Positions 5,580 to 26,701 of a DNA stretch of 64,000 nucleotides are shown here, piece after piece (the first letter of the stretch is position 1; each line of letters opens with the position of its first letter). The notes below the pieces were generated by a model. That model was not told the DNA's origin. It saw only the letters and a program-made list of their open reading frames with translations, and did not search any database. This DNA comes from Pseudomonas sp. BCA17 (GTDB taxonomy: Bacteria; Pseudomonadota; Gammaproteobacteria; Pseudomonadales; Pseudomonadaceae). The stretch is taken from positions 62,001-126,000 of the forward strand of contig NZ_SGWI01000004.1 in NCBI RefSeq assembly GCF_004519405.1. Reading direction: 5' to 3'. The position numbers and the translations under genes were made by a program.

Positions 5580-5604
5580 TGAGCCCGCCGCAACGGCGGG
5601 CTCA
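5580..5604. terminator. Convergent hairpin between the peptidase and fusion genes
   Basis: A perfect stem GAGCCCGCCG-CAA-CGGCGGGCTC between two converging genes overlaps the TGA of the minus-strand gene. There is no T-run, so it is a transcript-end hairpin whose terminator strength is uncertain. Confidence 0.55.
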
Positions 5605-7257
5605 ACGCATCAGGATATCTTCGAAGAACCCACCGATTGGCAGCACGGGGTGACAAAGCTGGATCTCCAGCACCCACACCATTTCGCTGGGGGTGATATC
5701 CAGGTCAGCCAATTCCTTGCTACCGAACAACGCATGGGGAAAATCCGCAATGCGGTGGCCTGCCAGGTTACGTGATAGCCGCCAGCCTTTCGCCATGGCG
5801 CGGTCTTCGGCAAAGTCATACAGTTCAACACCGGTCATGCCTCGCAGCCAGGCTTCGCGGGTTTCATCGAAGACTTCATGCAGCACCTTATGGCAGTCCA
5901 GGTGCAACGGCGCCTCGCCGAAGACGAAAGTGTCGCCGTAGTCCCCTTCGTAGCCGTCCCAGACCGGGCCAAGGTCCACTACCACAATGTCGCTGGGGCG
6001 TAATGTACGTGACGGATCGATCCCTTCCCGCGGCGGACGCACCGTATCATCGCCAAAGCGGATGTAGGTGGGGTGCCAGGTATGTGAGGCGCCCATGGCC
6101 TGCAATTGCCGGGCGGCCATTTCGAGGGCAGCCCCTGTGGTCATGCCAACCTTCAGTTGGCTGGCAATCGATGCCAGCGCGCGCACGCTTTTCTCACGTG
6201 CCGCCAGCATGCCATCGAGCGAATACCGCGGCCCGACTTTTTCCCAGGTTTCATCCAATGAGTTAAGCAATGTGTCGACGCTCGACGGGCCACTGGGCAC
6301 AAAGGCTTCCGCGACAAAACGATGGACCGGCAAGCCCGCCTCGAGGCAACCCGCGCGCGCCTGGTTGATCATCCCGCCGTTGCCGCAGGCATACACCTGC
6401 GCCTCTTCCCAGCGGTGCCCATGGCTCAGCGCAACGTCCTGCACCCTGCCCTCCGATGCCAGCACCGGGTGCCAGTGGAAACGGGGACAGTCGATGACCG
6501 ATTGGTCCAGGAAGGCGCGGTCGTAAAAATCTGCCGCCTGTGCGCCACCCCAGTAAAACGTCACCTCGACACCACGTTTCAAGGCGGTCAGCAGGATCGG
6601 CTTGATCCCCGCATAGCCAGTGCCGGTGGCGAACAAGACGACAGGCGCCACGTCATCGTCCTGCCAGGTGCAGGCACCAAAAGGCCCTTCCACGTGCAAT
6701 AGATCGCCGACGTCAAGGTCGCCGAGCAGGGTCTCGGAAAACAGCCCGCCGCTCACCCGACGAATCTGAAAAATCAGGCGTCCATCGCCATCGGCCGGCA
6801 GGTTGGCGATAGAAAAGCAGCGCGAGTCACCGTCGACCAGGCGGAACTTGAGGTACTGGCCCGCCCGCGCCGCCAAGGGCATATCCGGCATCACGACCAA
6901 CTCGATGATGTCGGGGCTGAGTGCGCGCTTGCTCAGCACTGTCGCCTCAACAACCAACGCGGGCGCGTCCAGGGACCAGCCGGGAATCTCCAAGCGCATA
7001 TCGGCACAGGCATGGCTCTGGCACAGCAGCATTTCATTGGCCGCCAGGGGATAGCTGGGAGAAGGAGTGCCCGGCGCCAGGCGCTTGGCACGGTACTGCC
7101 CCTGGGCGACCACGACCTTGCACGAACCGCACGCTCCACGCCGGCAGGAGAACGGCACAGGCAGGCCGCTGGCGAGCATCGCGTCGAGCAACAGTTCGTC
7201 ACCGGCTTCAAAGGTTTTCCCCGATGGGGAGAGTTCGATGACATGGCGTGTGTTCAT
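5602..7257 (-). CDS. Ferredoxin / FNR-type reductase / M24 metallopeptidase fusion protein
   Basis: A 551-residue three-part protein. Residues 1-95 are a plant-type [2Fe-2S] ferredoxin with cysteines at 38, 43, 46 and 79. Residues 100-320 are a ferredoxin-NADP-reductase-like module with an FAD-site RCFS at 146-149, a nucleotide loop ATGTGYAGIKP from 210 and YACGNGGMI from 289. Residues 330-551 are a creatinase/aminopeptidase-P (M24) domain whose five metal ligands appear intact: D428, D439, H501, E531 and E546. The first two parts alone would form an electron-transfer reductase for an oxygenase; the third normally cleaves Xaa-Pro or C-N bonds. The join is in frame with no sign of frameshift. 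The gene is divergent from a MocR regulator 77 bases away, which probably controls it. The substrate is unknown. Confidence 0.82.
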   Translation of the reverse strand: MNTRHVIELSPSGKTFEAGDELLLDAMLASGLPVPFSCRRGACGSCKVVVAQGQYRAKRLAPGTPSPSYPLAANEMLLCQSHACADMRLEIPGWSLDAPALVVEATVLSKRALSPDIIELVVMPDMPLAARAGQYLKFRLVDGDSRCFSIANLPADGDGRLIFQIRRVSGGLFSETLLGDLDVGDLLHVEGPFGACTWQDDDVAPVVLFATGTGYAGIKPILLTALKRGVEVTFYWGGAQAADFYDRAFLDQSVIDCPRFHWHPVLASEGRVQDVALSHGHRWEEAQVYACGNGGMINQARAGCLEAGLPVHRFVAEAFVPSGPSSVDTLLNSLDETWEKVGPRYSLDGMLAAREKSVRALASIASQLKVGMTTGAALEMAARQLQAMGASHTWHPTYIRFGDDTVRPPREGIDPSRTLRPSDIVVVDLGPVWDGYEGDYGDTFVFGEAPLHLDCHKVLHEVFDETREAWLRGMTGVELYDFAEDRAMAKGWRLSRNLAGHRIADFPHALFGSKELADLDITPSEMVWVLEIQLCHPVLPIGGFFEDILMR

Positions 7258-7334
7258 AAGGACCTCGGGGGGAGTGAGGCTTGATTGTTGCGCTAGACTA
7301 GGCCCATTAAAACCTCCAGTTTTGGATAGTTCAG

Positions 7335-8819
7335 ATGGTCCAGATGCGCAAATGGCGCCCGTTGCTCAAATTGGATGAGAGCACTCAACAAGCTTCCTAT
7401 CGCAAGATCGCCGATGGCCTCGTGTCTGCGATCGTCGAGGGGCGCCTACCTCCAGGCACACTGCTGCCGGGCACGCGGGAAATGGCGCAGGTACTCAACG
7501 TCAACCGCAAGACGGTCATCCTGGCCTACGAAGAAGCCCTGACCAAAGGCTGGCTGATCAGCGAGCCGCGACGCGGGACGTTCGTCAATGCGCAACTGGT
7601 GCCCGCTCCAGCGCCCAATCGCGCACAACAGTCCTTTGCCCCGCCGTTGCTGGCGCAGGCGGTCGTCCCGTATTTCACCCAGAACGCCCAGGTGATCGCC
7701 CTGCAACATCGGCATGACGCACTGTTTTTCGATAACGGCGCCTGCGACCACCGCTTGCTGCCGCAGGCTGTGTTGCATCGCTACTACCGCAACGCCCTGC
7801 GCAACAGCTTTGCATCCAATTCGGTGCGTTATGGCAGTGAGGGCACCGGCTATGAATTGCGGTGCGCGCTGGCGGAAATGCTGCGCAACAACCGTGGGCT
7901 GACGGCAAACGCGGAGAATATCTGCCTGACCCCAGGCACACAGGTGTCCCTGTTCCTGACCGCCAGCCTGCTGATCAAACCCGGCGACGTGGTGCTGGTG
8001 GAACGCCTGAGCTACCCACCGGCGTGGGAGATTTTCCGCAAGCTGGGTGCGCAATTGGTCATGGTCGATATGGATGAGGAAGGCTGTCGCACGGACCACA
8101 TCGAACGGTTATGCCATAGGCACGACGTCAGGATGATTTACCTCACGCCGCACCATCAGTTCCCCACCACCGTGAGCCTGCACGCAGCGCGCAGACAGCA
8201 CCTGCTGGCGCTGGCGGAGCTGCACGACTTTTGCGTGATCGAAGAAGACTACGACCACGAATACCATTTCAACGGGCGGCCGTACCTGCCGCTGGCCAGT
8301 GATAACGCGCAACGCCACGTGATCTATATTGGCTCGTTATCCAAGGCACTGGGCTCAACCTTTCGTTGCAGCTACGTGGTTGCCCCCGCCAGTGTGATTG
8401 AAGTGCTCCAGAGGAGCGCGGCGTTGGTGGTGGGGGACAGCGACGCGGTCGCGCAGAAGATGCTGGCGGACCTGATCAATCAGGGGGAATTGAAGAAACA
8501 CCTGCGCCGCGTTTCAAAAGAATACGCAGCGCGTCGGGAAGTGCTGCAGAGCTGCCTGCAACAGTCATTTGGTGATCGGATACGGGTACGCGAGCCTGAA
8601 GGTGGCCTGGCGCTCTGGGTGCGTTTCCAGGATGAAACCGATGTGGATCAACTGGTAAAGGCCGCTCAAGAACAGGGCGTGATAGTACGCAGCGCGTGTC
8701 AGTTTTCGCCGATGAACCTGCCCGAAAATGCCTTGCGCCTGGGTTTTGCCTCACTTGATCGGGATGAGATCCGTCAGGCCACGCTGCGCCTGGCACGGGC
8801 GCTGAACACACACAAATAA
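7335..8819 (+). CDS. MocR-type transcriptional regulator (GntR wHTH fused to PLP aminotransferase fold)
   Basis: A 494-residue protein. Residues 15-85 form a GntR winged helix, with GRLPPGTLLPGTREMAQVLN and the recognition helix RKTVILAYEEALTKGWL. From about residue 115 on it resembles a fold-type I aminotransferase, with EEDYDHEYHFNG and the PLP-lysine segment YIGSLSKALGSTFR. Members such as PdxR and GabR sense PLP or a PLP-amine adduct and usually control the divergent neighbour. That neighbour here is the ferredoxin-reductase-M24 fusion. The 77-base shared interval should hold both promoters and the operator; I could not pick out direct repeats with confidence. Confidence 0.88.
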   Translation: MVQMRKWRPLLKLDESTQQASYRKIADGLVSAIVEGRLPPGTLLPGTREMAQVLNVNRKTVILAYEEALTKGWLISEPRRGTFVNAQLVPAPAPNRAQQSFAPPLLAQAVVPYFTQNAQVIALQHRHDALFFDNGACDHRLLPQAVLHRYYRNALRNSFASNSVRYGSEGTGYELRCALAEMLRNNRGLTANAENICLTPGTQVSLFLTASLLIKPGDVVLVERLSYPPAWEIFRKLGAQLVMVDMDEEGCRTDHIERLCHRHDVRMIYLTPHHQFPTTVSLHAARRQHLLALAELHDFCVIEEDYDHEYHFNGRPYLPLASDNAQRHVIYIGSLSKALGSTFRCSYVVAPASVIEVLQRSAALVVGDSDAVAQKMLADLINQGELKKHLRRVSKEYAARREVLQSCLQQSFGDRIRVREPEGGLALWVRFQDETDVDQLVKAAQEQGVIVRSACQFSPMNLPENALRLGFASLDRDEIRQATLRLARALNTHK

Positions 8820-9891: not shown

Positions 9892-10662
9892 GTGACACCA
9901 CTCATGATCACCCTGCTGGTAATAGCCGGGATCGTAATACTGATCGCCATTGGCTACATGAACCATGTGGTGGAAAACAACAAGCTGGAAAAGAAGCGCA
10001 CCGAGATCGAGCTCAATGATCGGTTGCGTCGCTGCGGTGAAATCACCGAGACCTTCCCTGGCCAGTTGATGACCCCGGCGCTTAAATTGTTGCTGACCCG
10101 CCTGGAACTCAACGTCAACCAGCGCCTGCTGCACCTCAACAAATCCAGCGCACCGATCAAGGCACGCATCACCGAGCTGAATGCGCTGATCGCCCAGGGG
10201 GAGTCGATCCCCGTGACCAACCCGCCCGCGCCGATCCAGACCGAAGCCAAGGCCAAGGACGTGCGGTTCCTGCTTGAAGCCTTGCACGGTCAAGTCACCC
10301 GTGCCGCCCAGGACGGTTTCCTGCCCACCAATGAAGCCAAGCACTGGATCAAGGAAATTCGCCATATCCTGGTGCTGCTGCATATCGAGTTTTTCAACAA
10401 CCTGGGCCAGCACGCCCTGCAGCAAGGCCAGCCCGGCCAAGCGCGCCTGGCGTTCGAGCGCGGCGTGCAATACCTGCGCAAGCAGCCGGAACCGGTGATC
10501 TACAGTGCACAGTTGCAACTGCTGGAGTCGCAGTTGGCCCGTGCCAACTCCACGGTGCTCACCAATAGCCAACCCGCCGAAGACGAGGTCAATGAATTGA
10601 CCGAAGGCCTGAAAGTCGTCGACGCCGACGCCGAGTGGAAAAAGAAAGCCATCTACGACTGA
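9892..10662 (+). CDS. Membrane-anchored conserved hypothetical protein
   Basis: A 256-residue protein with one N-terminal membrane helix (about residues 4-22, ITLLVIAGIVILIAIGYM). A charged, mostly helical body follows, probably coiled coil with a TPR-like last third (HALQQGQPGQARLAFERGVQYL). This suggests an inner-membrane anchor with a cytoplasmic helical domain. I do not recognise a named family and assign no function. A GTG start is chosen because AAAGAGG lies 8 bases upstream; an ATG at 9904 would cut into the membrane helix. It stands alone between the tRNA operon and a hydrolase gene. Confidence 0.75.
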   Translation: MTPLMITLLVIAGIVILIAIGYMNHVVENNKLEKKRTEIELNDRLRRCGEITETFPGQLMTPALKLLLTRLELNVNQRLLHLNKSSAPIKARITELNALIAQGESIPVTNPPAPIQTEAKAKDVRFLLEALHGQVTRAAQDGFLPTNEAKHWIKEIRHILVLLHIEFFNNLGQHALQQGQPGQARLAFERGVQYLRKQPEPVIYSAQLQLLESQLARANSTVLTNSQPAEDEVNELTEGLKVVDADAEWKKKAIYD

Positions 10663-13772: not shown

Positions 13773-15182
13773 CTACACGCTCGTCGTTTTCAGAATGGTC
13801 GAGGTCGATCTGGCACCCACGGCACGGAACAACGCCAGCGCCCGCTGATCTGCAGCATAGGCCACATTGATGCGCAGCCAGTCACTGTGCTCACCGCCCG
13901 GGTTGAACAACGCTCCCGGAGACAGGAGCACACCGAGGCGTCGCGCGCAGGCCTGCAGATGGGAATGATCCGTCGCGCCTGGCCGTGCCCACAGGAACAT
14001 ACCGCCGGAGGGCACGGCAAACACCTGCCATTCTTCGTCTTCCAATACCTGCAAGGTTGAGGCCATCTGCGTGTTCAGGCGCTTGCGCAGGCGTTGCACC
14101 CACTTACGATACGTACCGTTGGCCAGCAGCGTGGCAACCACTGTTTCAGCAAACCGCGACGTGCCGATGCCGGTCAGCGTCTTGAGGCTGGCTAATTGTG
14201 CAATAACCGTAGCGCTGGCACTGAGATAGCCCACTCGCAGGGCACTGCTCAGGGTCTTGGAAAAACTTGAAACGTAGATCACCCGGTCATCATGGGGCAG
14301 CGCCGCAAGCCGTGTGCAACTGGCGTGCTGCAGGTCGCCATAGATGTCTTCCTCGATGATCAGGAAATCGCCGCTGCACGCCAATTGCAGCAAGCGCTCG
14401 GCAACCTCACGGCACAGGCTGGTACCGGTAGGATTGTGATACAGGCTGTTGATGAACAGGCACTTGGGCCGATGGTTACGCAGCAGCGCTTCCAGCACCG
14501 GGATATCCGGGCCGCCGTGGGTGCGTGGCACTTCCAGCAGCGTAACGCCATGGAACGCCAACTGACGATAAAGGTTGCCATAACCCGGCGTCTCGACCAC
14601 CACCGTATCACCCGCCTTCAACAAGGTGCGTATGAGCAGGTCCTGGGCATGGCTGGCACCATCGGTGGTGAGAATACGGTCAAGGCTGCTGGCGACCTGG
14701 ATCCGGGTCAGGCGCTTGAGCAGTTGCTCACGCAGCGCCGGCAGCCCCAGGGGCGGGGTGTGATTGAACAGGCCATGGGTGTCGATACGGCTGACTTCAC
14801 GTACCGCATAAGTGATGTCATCGCTTTCGCGCCAGGTGTCCGGTAGCCAGCCACACCCCAGTTTCAACTCACCCAGCGGTCCGTCGGTAAAGGCGCCCCA
14901 GCCTAGCTCCGCACCTTCATACCAATGGTTTTCATGCAAGACCGCAGGCGGGGCCACCACGAATCCCGAGCCCTGCTTCGAGACCAACAGCCCCTGGGCC
15001 ACCAGCCGATCGAATGCCTCGACCACGCTGGACTGGCTCAGCAGATTATCGAGGGCCAACTGCCGGATAGACGGTAATCGAGTGCCGGGCGTTACTCCAC
15101 TTCTGCGAATCCATTCCGTCACCGCGCTGACGATTTGCTGCACCACCGGTACAAGGGCTTGTCGATCGATCCCTAAATCCAT
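13773..15182 (-). CDS. MocR-type transcriptional regulator, second copy
   Basis: A 469-residue protein with an N-terminal GntR winged helix (GVTPGTRLPSIRQLALDNLL, SSVVEAFDRLVAQGLL). A fold-type I aminotransferase domain follows, with the PLP site IYVSSFSKTLSSALRVGYL and EEDIYGDLQH. It is distinct in sequence from the MocR protein at 7335. No PLP-related or transporter gene is divergent from it; an SDR gene lies upstream on the same strand, 203 bases away. Its target is therefore unclear and may be distant. Confidence 0.87.
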   Translation of the reverse strand: MDLGIDRQALVPVVQQIVSAVTEWIRRSGVTPGTRLPSIRQLALDNLLSQSSVVEAFDRLVAQGLLVSKQGSGFVVAPPAVLHENHWYEGAELGWGAFTDGPLGELKLGCGWLPDTWRESDDITYAVREVSRIDTHGLFNHTPPLGLPALREQLLKRLTRIQVASSLDRILTTDGASHAQDLLIRTLLKAGDTVVVETPGYGNLYRQLAFHGVTLLEVPRTHGGPDIPVLEALLRNHRPKCLFINSLYHNPTGTSLCREVAERLLQLACSGDFLIIEEDIYGDLQHASCTRLAALPHDDRVIYVSSFSKTLSSALRVGYLSASATVIAQLASLKTLTGIGTSRFAETVVATLLANGTYRKWVQRLRKRLNTQMASTLQVLEDEEWQVFAVPSGGMFLWARPGATDHSHLQACARRLGVLLSPGALFNPGGEHSDWLRINVAYAADQRALALFRAVGARSTSTILKTTSV

Positions 15183-15385: not shown

Positions 15386-16147
15386 CTAGATTGCGGTTGC
15401 ACCACCGTCCACCGCCAATGCCTGGCCTGTGGTGAAGGCAGCACCGTCGCTGCATAGGTACAACACCGCGCTGGCGATTTCCTCGACCTTGCCAATGCGC
15501 CCGACCGGGTGCATGGCGGCAGCGAACTCTGCCTTACGCGGGTCCGCTTCGTAGGCACGACGGAACATGTCGGTATCGATCACCGCCGGGCACACGGCAT
15601 TGACGCGGATTTTCTTTTTCGCGTACTCGATCGCGGCCGACTTGGTCAGGCCGATGACCGCATGCTTGGACGCGGCATAGATGCTCATCTTAGGGGCCGC
15701 CCCCAACCCCGCGACCGATGCAGTATTGACGATCGCCCCGCCGCCCTGCGCCAGCAACAGCGGCAATTGATACTTCATGCACAGCCAGACGCCCTTGACG
15801 TTGACCCCCATGATGGCGTCGAACTCGTCCAGACTGCCGTCCGCCAGCTTGCCCTTCTCGATCTCGATCCCGGCGTTGTTGAAGGCATAATCCAGGCGGC
15901 CATAGGCGGCGACGGTCTCTGCCATCAATTGCTGCACATCGGTTTCCAGGGTGACGTTGCAACGCACGAACAGCGCCTCGCCACCGGCCTGACGGATCAA
16001 CGCGACGGTGCCCTCACCGCCGTCCACGTCGAGGTCCGCAACCACGACTTTCAAGCCTTCGGCGGCGAACGCCAGTGCGGTGGCGCGGCCAATACCGGCG
16101 GCGGCGCCGGTCACCAGGGCGACTTGGCCGGAAAACGTCATGCTCAT
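15386..16147 (-). CDS. Short-chain dehydrogenase/reductase (SDR)
   Basis: A 253-residue classical SDR. The nucleotide motif is TGAAAGIG and NNAG marks beta-4. The catalytic triad is Ser in TASVAG plus the YAASK pair. A C-terminal GQALAVDGG is typical of FabG-like enzymes. The Asp in VVADLD after the second strand suggests NAD(H) preference. The start at 16147 has AAAGGA 7 bases upstream; a longer in-frame form lacks such a site. It lies divergent from a second oxidoreductase at 16375. Substrate not predictable. Confidence 0.9.
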   Translation of the reverse strand: MSMTFSGQVALVTGAAAGIGRATALAFAAEGLKVVVADLDVDGGEGTVALIRQAGGEALFVRCNVTLETDVQQLMAETVAAYGRLDYAFNNAGIEIEKGKLADGSLDEFDAIMGVNVKGVWLCMKYQLPLLLAQGGGAIVNTASVAGLGAAPKMSIYAASKHAVIGLTKSAAIEYAKKKIRVNAVCPAVIDTDMFRRAYEADPRKAEFAAAMHPVGRIGKVEEIASAVLYLCSDGAAFTTGQALAVDGGATAI

Positions 16148-16374
16148 GAGGATGTCCTTTGGGAGAAATAGCGGTGGCTCGAGTCTAGCCAACGCCCTGT
16201 GCGACGCGTCAGCACTATCAGAAGGCCGGTTGGCGCTGCATGAATGACAGTGATACTTGACCCAGGCTGACTATCAGCCACGCCTATCGCCGTGCATTCG
16301 CGCCACTCGGACAACCTTGCTCACTGGCTATTGAGGGTCTATCACTCAAGGTTCATTTCTAAAGAGTCCTTGTC

Positions 16375-24516: not shown

Positions 24517-26163
24517 CTAATCCTGCCACAGAATGGACTCACTGCGCTCGCTCCAGGCATGCAGTTGAGCGCCATAGGTCGATTCGATCACATTGCGTTT
24601 TATCTTCAGGGTCGGGGTCAGAAAACCGTTTTCTACCGCCCAACTGTCTTTGACCACCACCAGCTGGCGCAGACGCTCATGCTTATCCAGCGCCTGGTTG
24701 ACCTGTTCCAGCCAGCACTCCAGCTCTCCCCTCAGTGCCTGCCGGTCCTCGCCCGCCGCCAGCACGCATAAACCTATCGGCGCGCTCAGCCCTTCGCCTA
24801 CCACGCACACCTGCTCGATGCGTGCATGTTCGGCCAGGCGGTTTTCAATCGGCGCCGGGGCCACGTACTTGCCCTTGCTGGTCTTGAAGATTTCCTTGAG
24901 CCGCCCGGTCAGGCGCAGGCGGCCGGCCGCATCCTGTTCACCCTTGTCACCCGTGCGCAGGAACCCGTCATCGGTGAGGGTCTCAGCGGTTTTCTGCGGG
25001 TCCTTGAAGTAGCCGAGCATGGTCGCGCCGCTGCGCACCTGCACTTCGCCCAACGGGTCGATGCGCACTTCCACCCCCGGGCATGGCAGGCCGATCCAGC
25101 CAAGCGTCTGTTGCCCGGGGCGGCACACATGGGAATAGCCACAGCTTTCAGTCATCCCATACACCTCCAGCACATCCAGCCCCAGGCGCTGATACCAGCG
25201 CAGCAGGGCCTCAGGCACCGGCGCTGCGCCGGATAACGCAATACGCAGCGCGTCCAGGCCCAAACCCGCGAGCACCTTGCGGCCCACATGCCGACCAATA
25301 AACGGCAGGCGCAACAGCCTGTCCAGGCGCTTTTGCGAGACCTTTGCGTACACACCCATCTGCAGTTTGGTCCAGATCCGTGGGACCCCGAACAACGCGG
25401 TCGGCCGCGCCCGGCGCAGGTCAGTCAGAAAGGTATCGAGGCTTTCAGCGAAAAACACCGTTTGCCCGGTATAGATCGACGCCAGCTCGACGAACATCCG
25501 CTCTGCCACATGGCACAACGGCAGGTACGACAGCAGCCGGTCGCCCTCCCCCAGGCCAAACAACTCGGTGCCTCGGGTGGCGGCAAAGCCCAGGGCGCCG
25601 AATGTTTGCATCACGCCCTTGGGCAACCCAGTGGTGCCGGAGGTGTAGACGATAGTGGCCAGGCTGGAGGCTTCGGCCTCGGGGTTATCCTGAATGGGTG
25701 AGCAGACCTGCAGATCGGCCCAAGTGAAATCGAAGTCGCCGGCCGGCCCCAGCGGCAGACGGATGGTCGACAACCCGGCCGGGATGCCGGGCGCCATGGC
25801 CGGCCAGTCATCCAACTTGCCGATCAGCGCCAGCGCCGCCTCGGAATGGGTCAGCACATGGGCAACGGAGTCGGCGGTGAGGTTGGGGTATAACGGGACC
25901 GAGACATGCCCGGCCATCCAGATCGCCAGGTCGGCGATGATCCAGTGTGCACAGTTTTTCGAGATCAGCGCGATATGCGAGCCCGGGGGCAGTTGCCGAG
26001 CACGCAGCCACTGCGCGGCGCAACGGGCCTGATGGCCGACTTCGCCCCAGGTGAGGGTCTGCACCTCGCCCCCACCGATGGGCTGCACGAGAAAGGGTTT
26101 GCGCGGATGCCGCGCTTCACGTTCGAAGAAGACCTGCAACGGCAAACGAAAAGCGACGGGCAT
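24517..26163 (-). CDS. AMP-dependent acyl-CoA synthetase (long-chain type)
   Basis: A 548-residue adenylate-forming ligase. The P-loop-like motif is TIVYTSGTTGLPKGVM. Family boxes VYGMTESCGYS, LRTGDKGEQDAAGRLRLTGR and the late KTSKGKYVAPAPIEN are present, the last matching the FACL15-type long-chain synthetases. It activates a fatty or other carboxylic acid with ATP and CoA. The start at 26163 is supported by AAAGGAG 8 bases upstream; a longer frame reaches 26232 without such a site. A perfect palindrome (26197-26218) lies between promoter and start. Confidence 0.9.
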   Translation of the reverse strand: MPVAFRLPLQVFFEREARHPRKPFLVQPIGGGEVQTLTWGEVGHQARCAAQWLRARQLPPGSHIALISKNCAHWIIADLAIWMAGHVSVPLYPNLTADSVAHVLTHSEAALALIGKLDDWPAMAPGIPAGLSTIRLPLGPAGDFDFTWADLQVCSPIQDNPEAEASSLATIVYTSGTTGLPKGVMQTFGALGFAATRGTELFGLGEGDRLLSYLPLCHVAERMFVELASIYTGQTVFFAESLDTFLTDLRRARPTALFGVPRIWTKLQMGVYAKVSQKRLDRLLRLPFIGRHVGRKVLAGLGLDALRIALSGAAPVPEALLRWYQRLGLDVLEVYGMTESCGYSHVCRPGQQTLGWIGLPCPGVEVRIDPLGEVQVRSGATMLGYFKDPQKTAETLTDDGFLRTGDKGEQDAAGRLRLTGRLKEIFKTSKGKYVAPAPIENRLAEHARIEQVCVVGEGLSAPIGLCVLAAGEDRQALRGELECWLEQVNQALDKHERLRQLVVVKDSWAVENGFLTPTLKIKRNVIESTYGAQLHAWSERSESILWQD

Positions 26164-26196
26164 GGGACGCGCTCCTTTGTGTGATCCGATGATAGC

Positions 26197-26218
26197 CAAC
26201 CAAGCACTTGCTTGGTTG
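26197..26218. promoter_or_regulatory. Perfect 10+2+10 palindrome, probable repressor operator
   Basis: CAACCAAGCA-CT-TGCTTGGTTG is a perfect inverted repeat lying 34 bases upstream of the acyl-CoA ligase start. It sits just downstream of TATAGT on the minus strand (26224-26219, a possible -10), so a bound protein would block transcription start. Size and symmetry fit a TetR-family site; the regulator is unknown. Confidence 0.6.
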
Positions 26219-26251
26219 ACTATATAGCACACAAAGCAGCGACCACTTTTC

Positions 26252-26701
26252 CTACGGGTTCTTCACGCTGACCAGGCTCATCAGCCCCGCCAGCGGAGAA
26301 TCACCCTCCAGCTCCGCCAGGCTGGCGGTGTGCATCGGTTGCGGTTGGCGCTGATGACCATGCTGCAAAAAGCTGATCAGGCAACCCACCAAAGGCTGGT
26401 GACTGACCAGCAGCACGTTGTCCTCGGTGTCGAGCTTTTCCAGCACCTGCAGCGGGTTGCCTTCGGGTGTCAGCCACGGCACCGTGCAGATCTCGGGCGT
26501 GAAACCCAACGCCTCGCGAACCAGCAGCGCTGTCTGCTGCGCCCGCACATAAGGGCTGGCGATGATCGCGCCGAGGGGCTGGCCGATCAGGTGCGCAGCA
26601 CTGCGCAACACTTCGGCGCGGCCATGCTCGGTGAGGTTGCGCTCGGCGTCGGTGCGCGCAAACCCTTCGGCCTCACCGTGCCGCAAGATCCACAGTTTCA
26701 C
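26252..26701 (-). CDS. sixA: Phosphohistidine phosphatase SixA
   Basis: A 149-residue member of the histidine phosphatase (RHG) superfamily. The N-terminal catalytic LRHGEAE (His8) and second-site VSHQPLVG are typical, as is the short length. SixA removes phosphate from phosphohistidine in HPt domains or in NPr of the nitrogen PTS. Its start overlaps the stop of the DUF4389 gene by four bases, and that gene follows gpsA by 10 bases, so gpsA-DUF4389-sixA is one operon, an order I recall from other pseudomonads. Confidence 0.92.
   Translation of the reverse strand: MKLWILRHGEAEGFARTDAERNLTEHGRAEVLRSAAHLIGQPLGAIIASPYVRAQQTALLVREALGFTPEICTVPWLTPEGNPLQVLEKLDTEDNVLLVSHQPLVGCLISFLQHGHQRQPQPMHTASLAELEGDSPLAGLMSLVSVKNP

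Follow-up and report, generated by a model that had tools for sequence, protein, structure and literature searches.

Reductases that combine a [2Fe-2S] ferredoxin (Fer2) domain with FAD- and NAD-binding domains normally pass electrons to a protein metal centre, and BenC and GcoB, for example, are separate proteins that each serve an oxygenase. What, then, might such a reductase do when its chain runs on into a domain of the M24 metallopeptidase fold? The question is raised by a gene in the window (the whole stretch of DNA analysed here, 64,000 nucleotides long, at 62001-126000 of contig 23 in a genome of 6.3 Mb), where one open frame on the minus strand, with its ATG at 7257 and its stop codon at 5602-5604, encodes 551 residues. 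A first-pass annotation had placed this gene correctly at 5602-7257, naming no strand, and had offered as one idea that the reductase part serves a separate oxygenase whose product is hydrolysed by the M24 part.

Domain structure and distribution of the fusion gene

Pfam searches place four domains along the chain, all above their cut-offs and in the order Fer2, FAD_binding_6, NAD_binding_1 and Peptidase_M24, which bears out the earlier description of ferredoxin, FAD/NAD reductase and M24 parts in one chain. The ferredoxin domain occupies residues 8-83 (7009-7236, minus strand; 50.6 bits against a cut-off of 21), the FAD-binding domain residues 106-197 (6667-6942, minus strand; 31.7 against 21.1 bits), and the NAD-binding domain residues 209-301 (6355-6633, minus strand; 27.6 against 22 bits). 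The Peptidase_M24 match covers residues 349-533 (71.6 against 23 bits), within a pita-bread domain that Pfam, a domain model and fold matches delimit to residues 345-551 (5605-6225, minus strand). Between the halves lies a linker of residues 320-344 (6226-6300, minus strand), with pLDDT below 50 and poor conservation (mean 0.42 over residues 322-338).

The absence of a frameshift at the join, as first read from this one gene, is borne out by its relatives. Full-length, stop-free fusions occur in 53 of 398 congeneric genomes, at 69-100% identity and with internal stops in none of them. Named genomes were scanned at one per species, seeded with two exact peptide patterns, and in the best 80 of 112 relatives a single stop-free frame spans over 480 residues of the fusion at every locus (80/80); in one (L132) the contig edge cuts the frame off at residue 523. 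The open full-length homologues in both scans rule out a sequencing error at the join, and the survey finds the same fusion recurring, in one frame, in many species. Going by their record titles, these best 80 of 112 relatives comprise 56 Pseudomonas-type loci (55 Pseudomonas and one Pantoea) and 24 loci of other genera, namely Collimonas, Herbaspirillum, Duganella, Achromobacter, Variovorax, Roseateles and Paraburkholderia, at 43-60% identity; three of the 24 records are metagenome-assembled genomes, and we take all seven genera to be Burkholderiales. In a phylum sample of 398 genomes, only three contain the full fusion at E <= 1e-30, all of the host's genus; on this sample the fusion is conserved but uncommon. 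Viral contigs gave no match to the fusion patterns used, and none of 28 plasmid records covers 80% of the fusion, the 15 listed matching the reductase half only. No description of the fusion appeared among the matches listed in an open-access full-text library.

Two single records are of separate interest. The Pantoea locus (L121, Pantoea sp. Ap-967) has a fusion of Pseudomonas type, at 68% identity, together with the MocR gene described below, and its genus label may reflect misclassification. Genome G095 carries, besides an intact fusion, a broken fragment on contig 19 (L057, at about 25854-26351) that is interrupted by one stop and shares 75% identity with residues 376-543.

Both halves are retained in all members of an alignment of 52 fusions (that of the window and 51 of the 80 named loci), down to 44% identity, and mean column conservation is highest in the M24 half (0.75, against 0.69 and 0.66 in the redox parts). 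The M24 half also has stand-alone relatives, a subfamily of about 220 residues found at 23 loci (L059-L073 and L190-L197) in several Pseudomonadota lineages. In a tree of the 52 fusion rows (residue 321 to the end), the 23 stand-alone relatives and three outgroup proteins, the fusions all fall on one side of a branch with support of 100/99, with long branches among the other rows. A quick tree of M24 columns only, from which the outgroup and three long stand-alone rows were left out, recovers the same split (SH-aLRT 99). The trees fit a single origin of the fusion, and do not prove it.

The redox half

Every cofactor motif of the redox half is invariant in the alignment (52/52 each): cluster residues Cys38, Cys43, Cys46 and Cys79; Arg146 and Ser149 of the RxxS motif (146-149) for FAD; and, for NAD, Gly212 and Gly214 of the GTG motif (212-214) and Cys291-Gly292. 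The predicted full-length structure has a mean pLDDT of 79 and a pTM of 0.53, with low confidence in the linker and ambiguous domain placement. In fold, the redox half matches benzoate dioxygenase reductase (1krh_A; Z 30.9, rmsd 4.4 Å, 313 aligned) as well as GcoB, a P450 reductase (5ogx; Z 30.2, 6.3 Å, 303 aligned). Its cysteines, RxxS and GxG motifs and fold are those of the Fer2-FAD-NAD oxygenase reductases (BenC/MmoC type), and it scores below the NCBIfam equivalog cut-offs for both BenC (96.5 vs 430) and MmoC (97.2 vs 500). The fusion thus shares with BenC and GcoB its domain order, four cluster cysteines, FAD and NAD motifs and fold; it differs from them in continuing into an M24 domain, and in having no conserved oxygenase gene nearby.

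The M24 half

A fold search with the full-length model returned the redox half alone, so the M24 domain was modelled separately (pLDDT 84.4, pTM 0.83). This model resembles prolidase (1wy2_B; Z 20.4, 3.0 Å, 197 aligned) and methionine aminopeptidase (MetAP; 2evc; Z 19.9, 2.6 Å, 190 aligned), with Z from 18.9 to 20.4 among the 50 rows listed. By alignment, five metal ligands stand in register with those known from M24 enzymes and are invariant (all on the minus strand): Asp428 (5974-5976), Asp439 (5941-5943) and His501 (5755-5757) in 52/52 members, and Glu531 (5665-5667) and Glu546 (5620-5622) in 51/51, since one of the 52 rows ends at a contig edge. Together with the fold and the PF00557 score (71.6 vs 23 bits), they place the domain in the M24 superfamily. 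His508 follows His501 by seven residues, the spacing of two histidines in MetAP.

The residues that would make this fold a peptidase are another matter. Opposite the catalytic histidine of MetAP (His79 type) stands Glu411 (phmmer and MAFFT), in a column otherwise of Gln, Lys or, in two of 52 fusions and none of 23 stand-alone rows, His; opposite that of PepP (aminopeptidase P His243 type) stands Pro409 (MAFFT), in a column that is never His in the 52 fusions or the 23 stand-alone rows. The Glu-Pro at the fourth ligand is likewise replaced, Glu531 being followed by Ile-Gln and residue 532 being Ile or Val in all 51 fusions with letters there. Phe544 (51/51 fusions) takes the place of an Arg in PepP and a long Xaa-Pro peptidase, and of a Gln in MetAP; excerpts of a study of aminopeptidase P describe roles for His243 and for the matching Arg (PMC5774706). 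The creatinase-type N-terminal domain of the M24B group (aminopeptidase P/prolidase/creatinase) has no Pfam match in the chain, where the linker precedes M24, and the type I methionine aminopeptidase model TIGR00500 scores below its cut-off (29 vs 171.35 bits). Compared with MetAP, prolidase and aminopeptidase P, the fusion therefore keeps the fold and the ligands D, D, H, E, E, and lacks the His79/His243-type residue, the Glu-Pro, the creatinase N-domain and, with its Phe, the Arg of PepP. Judged by its aligned residues, the M24 half does not qualify as a canonical peptidase. The first-pass statement that all key residues are intact accordingly stands for cofactor motifs and metal ligands and fails for the peptidase residues, and its suggestion of an Xaa-Pro or creatinase-like hydrolase is weakened.

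An extra carboxylate, Glu437, lies two residues before the second ligand in 52/52 fusions and 23/23 stand-alone relatives; in four M24 peptidases of the same genome this position is occupied by Ala, His, Ile or Thr. Asp404 (in none of the 23 stand-alone rows) and Asp442 (in two of 23) are features of the fusions. Tyr436 was considered as a further novelty and rejected, since MetAP and PepP too have Tyr three residues before the second Asp.

An M24 fold without peptidase activity has a precedent in DddP, an iron-containing DMSP lyase which, in excerpts of its description (PMC4108388), likewise carries an additional conserved carboxylate close to its site, Asp297; this lies two residues after the first ligand, where the fusion has Gly430 (52/52). 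The genome that contains the window has another M24 gene (L158; G000:C25:55712-56341) with Asp-Thr-Asp at the first ligand. It presumably resembles the DddP-like group. To our knowledge, DddP has no fused reductase.

The stand-alone subfamily shares both the lost peptidase residues and the extra Glu with the fusion's M24 half. Its genes stand in varied surroundings (trpF-truA-fimV; LysR/aldehyde dehydrogenase; TetR/PALP; others) that suggest no common function. No split version (an M24 gene adjoining a Fer2/FNR gene) was seen there: called proteins of the 23 loci contain no Fer2-like motif, and Pfam covered some neighbours at L059, L064, L067, L069, L071 and L190-L195. Because these relatives share the altered site and have no linked reductase, the site alone is no pointer to redox chemistry.

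The MocR neighbour and the shared promoter

Divergently from the fusion gene runs a gene for a MocR-type regulator of 494 residues (7335-8819, plus strand), with the GntR and aminotransferase domains of that family (Pfam). The first-pass annotation had noticed this neighbour, and the link proves stronger than it could see: a divergent MocR gene lies within 400 bp of the fusion at 79 of the 80 named loci (best 80 of 112), at 72-170 bp by extrapolated starts, the exception being L153. It is also present in 23 of 24 fetched Pseudomonas regions, a set overlapping in genomes with the named loci, at 77-83 bp from start to start; L050 lacks it. MocR is the only neighbour constant throughout the loci, the others differing between clades. 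Its two kinds, Pseudomonas-type and Achromobacter-type, are 29% identical over 400 residues, so the pairing would have been kept through strong divergence, or else made twice. The SLSK motif at residues 334-337 contains a Lys that we take to bind PLP. The regulator passes the NCBIfam PdxR model (336 bits against a cut-off of 320); we do not rely on that name, because both MocR kinds pass at 29% identity and a profile search of the genome found no pdxS over the cut-off. In a study of MocR regulons (PMC5320631), ferredoxin occurs in two places and peptidase in none, and neither place concerns the fusion/MocR pair.

The promoter that the two genes share contains a conserved stretch resembling an operator (7304-7341, assigned to neither strand), seen in an alignment of 20 loci; its right end overlaps the MocR start codon. 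Its core of 17 bases, AACCTCCAGTTTTGGAT, lies at 7311-7327. Searched with up to two mismatches for the core and up to three for a longer form, the genome yields one site each; as a control, the 17-base core written backwards also matched once, at two mismatches. By this crude definition, the single sites suggest a local regulon. An inverted-repeat operator, GGACCAT/ATGGTCC, was considered, and we do not rely on it: its right arm is the MocR start, and no repeats were reported in 7255-7340. Elsewhere in the window, a second MocR-type regulator (13773-15182, minus strand) adjoins a short-chain dehydrogenase gene (15386-16192), with no link to the fusion seen.

The search for a linked oxygenase

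We scanned the surroundings of the 80 named loci and of the window (81 loci, of which five have less than 10 kb of flank), using a codon-scored gene caller, which predicted 1054 proteins lying no more than 8 kb away. A Rieske motif occurs at two of the 81 loci, and Pfam confirms both as Rieske oxygenases: a VanA type about 2.3 kb from the fusion's end at L106, and a LigXa type with Rieske ferredoxin genes about 6 kb away at L153, the sole locus of the 80 without a divergent MocR gene. The P450 motif is absent from the called proteins within 8 kb at all 81 loci, and a loose diiron-type motif (two ExxH), present at 46/81, is too unspecific to use. A Rieske or P450 oxygenase gene is not a conserved neighbour of the fusion. 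A six-frame motif scan, which reported Rieske motifs at 12 and P450 motifs at two of 93 loci, was set aside: called proteins kept the hit in one of 13 cases, and the scan pattern omitted L125-L132 and double-counted some genomes.

Proposed function

Together these findings lead us to propose, with a probability of about one in three, that the fusion is a self-contained, substrate-induced redox metalloenzyme in which electrons feed the M24 metal site. By analogy with the families concerned, MocR would use PLP to sense a compound of amine or amino-acid-like type and would control the fusion gene; NAD(P)H would reduce FAD, which would in turn reduce the [2Fe-2S] cluster. From the cluster, electrons might then cross the flexible linker to the metal pair of the M24 domain, probably iron; this site may activate O2 or perform a reductive step on the inducer compound or a derivative of it. 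The fused M24 domain is the simplest acceptor for a dedicated reductase that is long fused, has its own regulator and lies near no conserved oxygenase gene; the scarcity of Rieske genes (2/81 loci) and the single-site promoter core likewise make an acceptor in the same chain the simplest choice. The reading is further supported by the likeness of the redox half to proteins that reduce metal oxygenases (1krh_A, 5ogx), and by an M24 site that keeps its five ligands, has lost its peptidase residues and carries the invariant Glu437. The Rieske oxygenase genes within 8 kb at L106 and L153 count against it. We put its probability no higher because the site of the stand-alone relatives may serve a non-redox reaction, and the reductase might act on the substrate or protect Fe(II).

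The principal competitor, which we consider somewhat unlikely, is that the two halves carry out consecutive steps, the reductase half reducing the substrate directly (at an N-oxide, nitro, hydroxylamine or quinone group, for example) and the M24 half then hydrolysing or eliminating as a metal-dependent hydrolase or lyase. Direct reduction of small molecules is within the reach of FNR-type proteins, the M24 site retains all its metal ligands and His508, and the stand-alone subfamily must function without a fused reductase; yet reductases of this architecture ordinarily deliver electrons to metal centres in proteins, and the residues with which M24 peptidases hydrolyse amides are gone. The view of the first-pass annotation, that the M24 half hydrolyses the product of a separate oxygenase, is improbable and has gained little support. 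The closest relatives of the redox half in sequence and fold are indeed oxygenase reductases, and L106 and L153 offer Rieske partners; such genes occur at only 2/81 loci, with P450 genes at 0/81, while the neighbours that recur within clades are other genes, and the promoter core is unique in the genome. Quite improbable, too, is a reductase that serves to keep the iron of an M24 hydrolase as Fe(II), the active form, with a non-redox reaction at the site: iron is named as the in vivo cofactor of methionine aminopeptidases in excerpts of the DddP paper (PMC4108388), but a dedicated reductase of 320 residues would be a costly solution, and at the loci seen no reductase gene accompanies the unfused relatives that share the site. 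An error of sequencing or assembly, or a fusion that is recent and degenerate, is hardly credible, the single broken extra fragment (contig 19 of G095) being set against 53 and 80 open homologues across many species and motifs that are invariant in both halves.

Within the proposal that electrons reach the M24 site, a narrower version, which we regard as unlikely, would have the M24 fold turned into a reductase-fed dinuclear iron oxygenase that activates O2 on an amine-like substrate, its site formed by Asp, Asp, Glu, Glu and His with the invariant Glu437 and His508. If true, this would add a new fold to the O2-activating dimetal enzymes, in the manner of the HD-domain oxygenases, which arose from a hydrolase fold. 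No oxygenase or electron acceptor of the M24 fold is known to us, and none was listed in searches of open-access literature; membership of an oxygenase family is not claimed for the fusion. Its layout resembles that of the self-sufficient P450s (CYP116B) and flavohaemoglobin, which unite a reductase and a catalytic metal domain in one chain; these have haem domains where the fusion has an M24 dimetal site, and the likeness is one of analogy only. A comparable set of parts is described, in excerpts, for the dnf (Dirammox) cluster, with its MocR-like regulator DnfR, Fer2-FNR reductase DnfB and diiron N-oxygenase DnfA (PMC9478400, PMC9136411); regulator, reductase and dinuclear metal enzyme recur at the fusion locus, whereas the dnf genes are separate and DnfA is of the AurF/CmlI type, not M24.

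Should the M24 site receive electrons, an old fold of hydrolases would count among the metal enzymes that activate oxygen or carry out reductions, and the stand-alone subfamily, 'peptidase' by fold, would need re-examination. Even otherwise, the locus, conserved in Pseudomonas, Herbaspirillum, Achromobacter, Variovorax and relatives, offers a clean experimental target of one enzyme, one regulator and one shared promoter, in which MocR should reveal the inducer.

Other neighbours and the possible substrate

Apart from MocR, the neighbours that recur (among 33 selected loci) are each restricted to particular clades. In Achromobacter, five loci have a gene for the TRAP permease DctM beyond MocR, and at L139, L140, L146 and L150 (Achromobacter) dctP, dctQ and dctM, at about 4.4-9.9 kb, lie downstream of MocR on the same strand. 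At four loci of Oxalobacteraceae type (Herbaspirillum/Duganella; L127, L128, L129 and L131) an ABC importer and a DAO-type oxidase are encoded some kb past MocR. The importers could be a hint that a small, charged substrate is taken up, and the TRAP importer beside MocR is a possible pointer to what that substrate is. A Dyp peroxidase gene recurs at L048, L142, L143, L144 and L148, and two proteins of the recurring neighbour clusters that were scanned have no Pfam match. The window also encodes, at 9892-10662 on the plus strand, a protein of 256 residues that has no Pfam match and is found at 94-97% identity at L036, L040 and L041.
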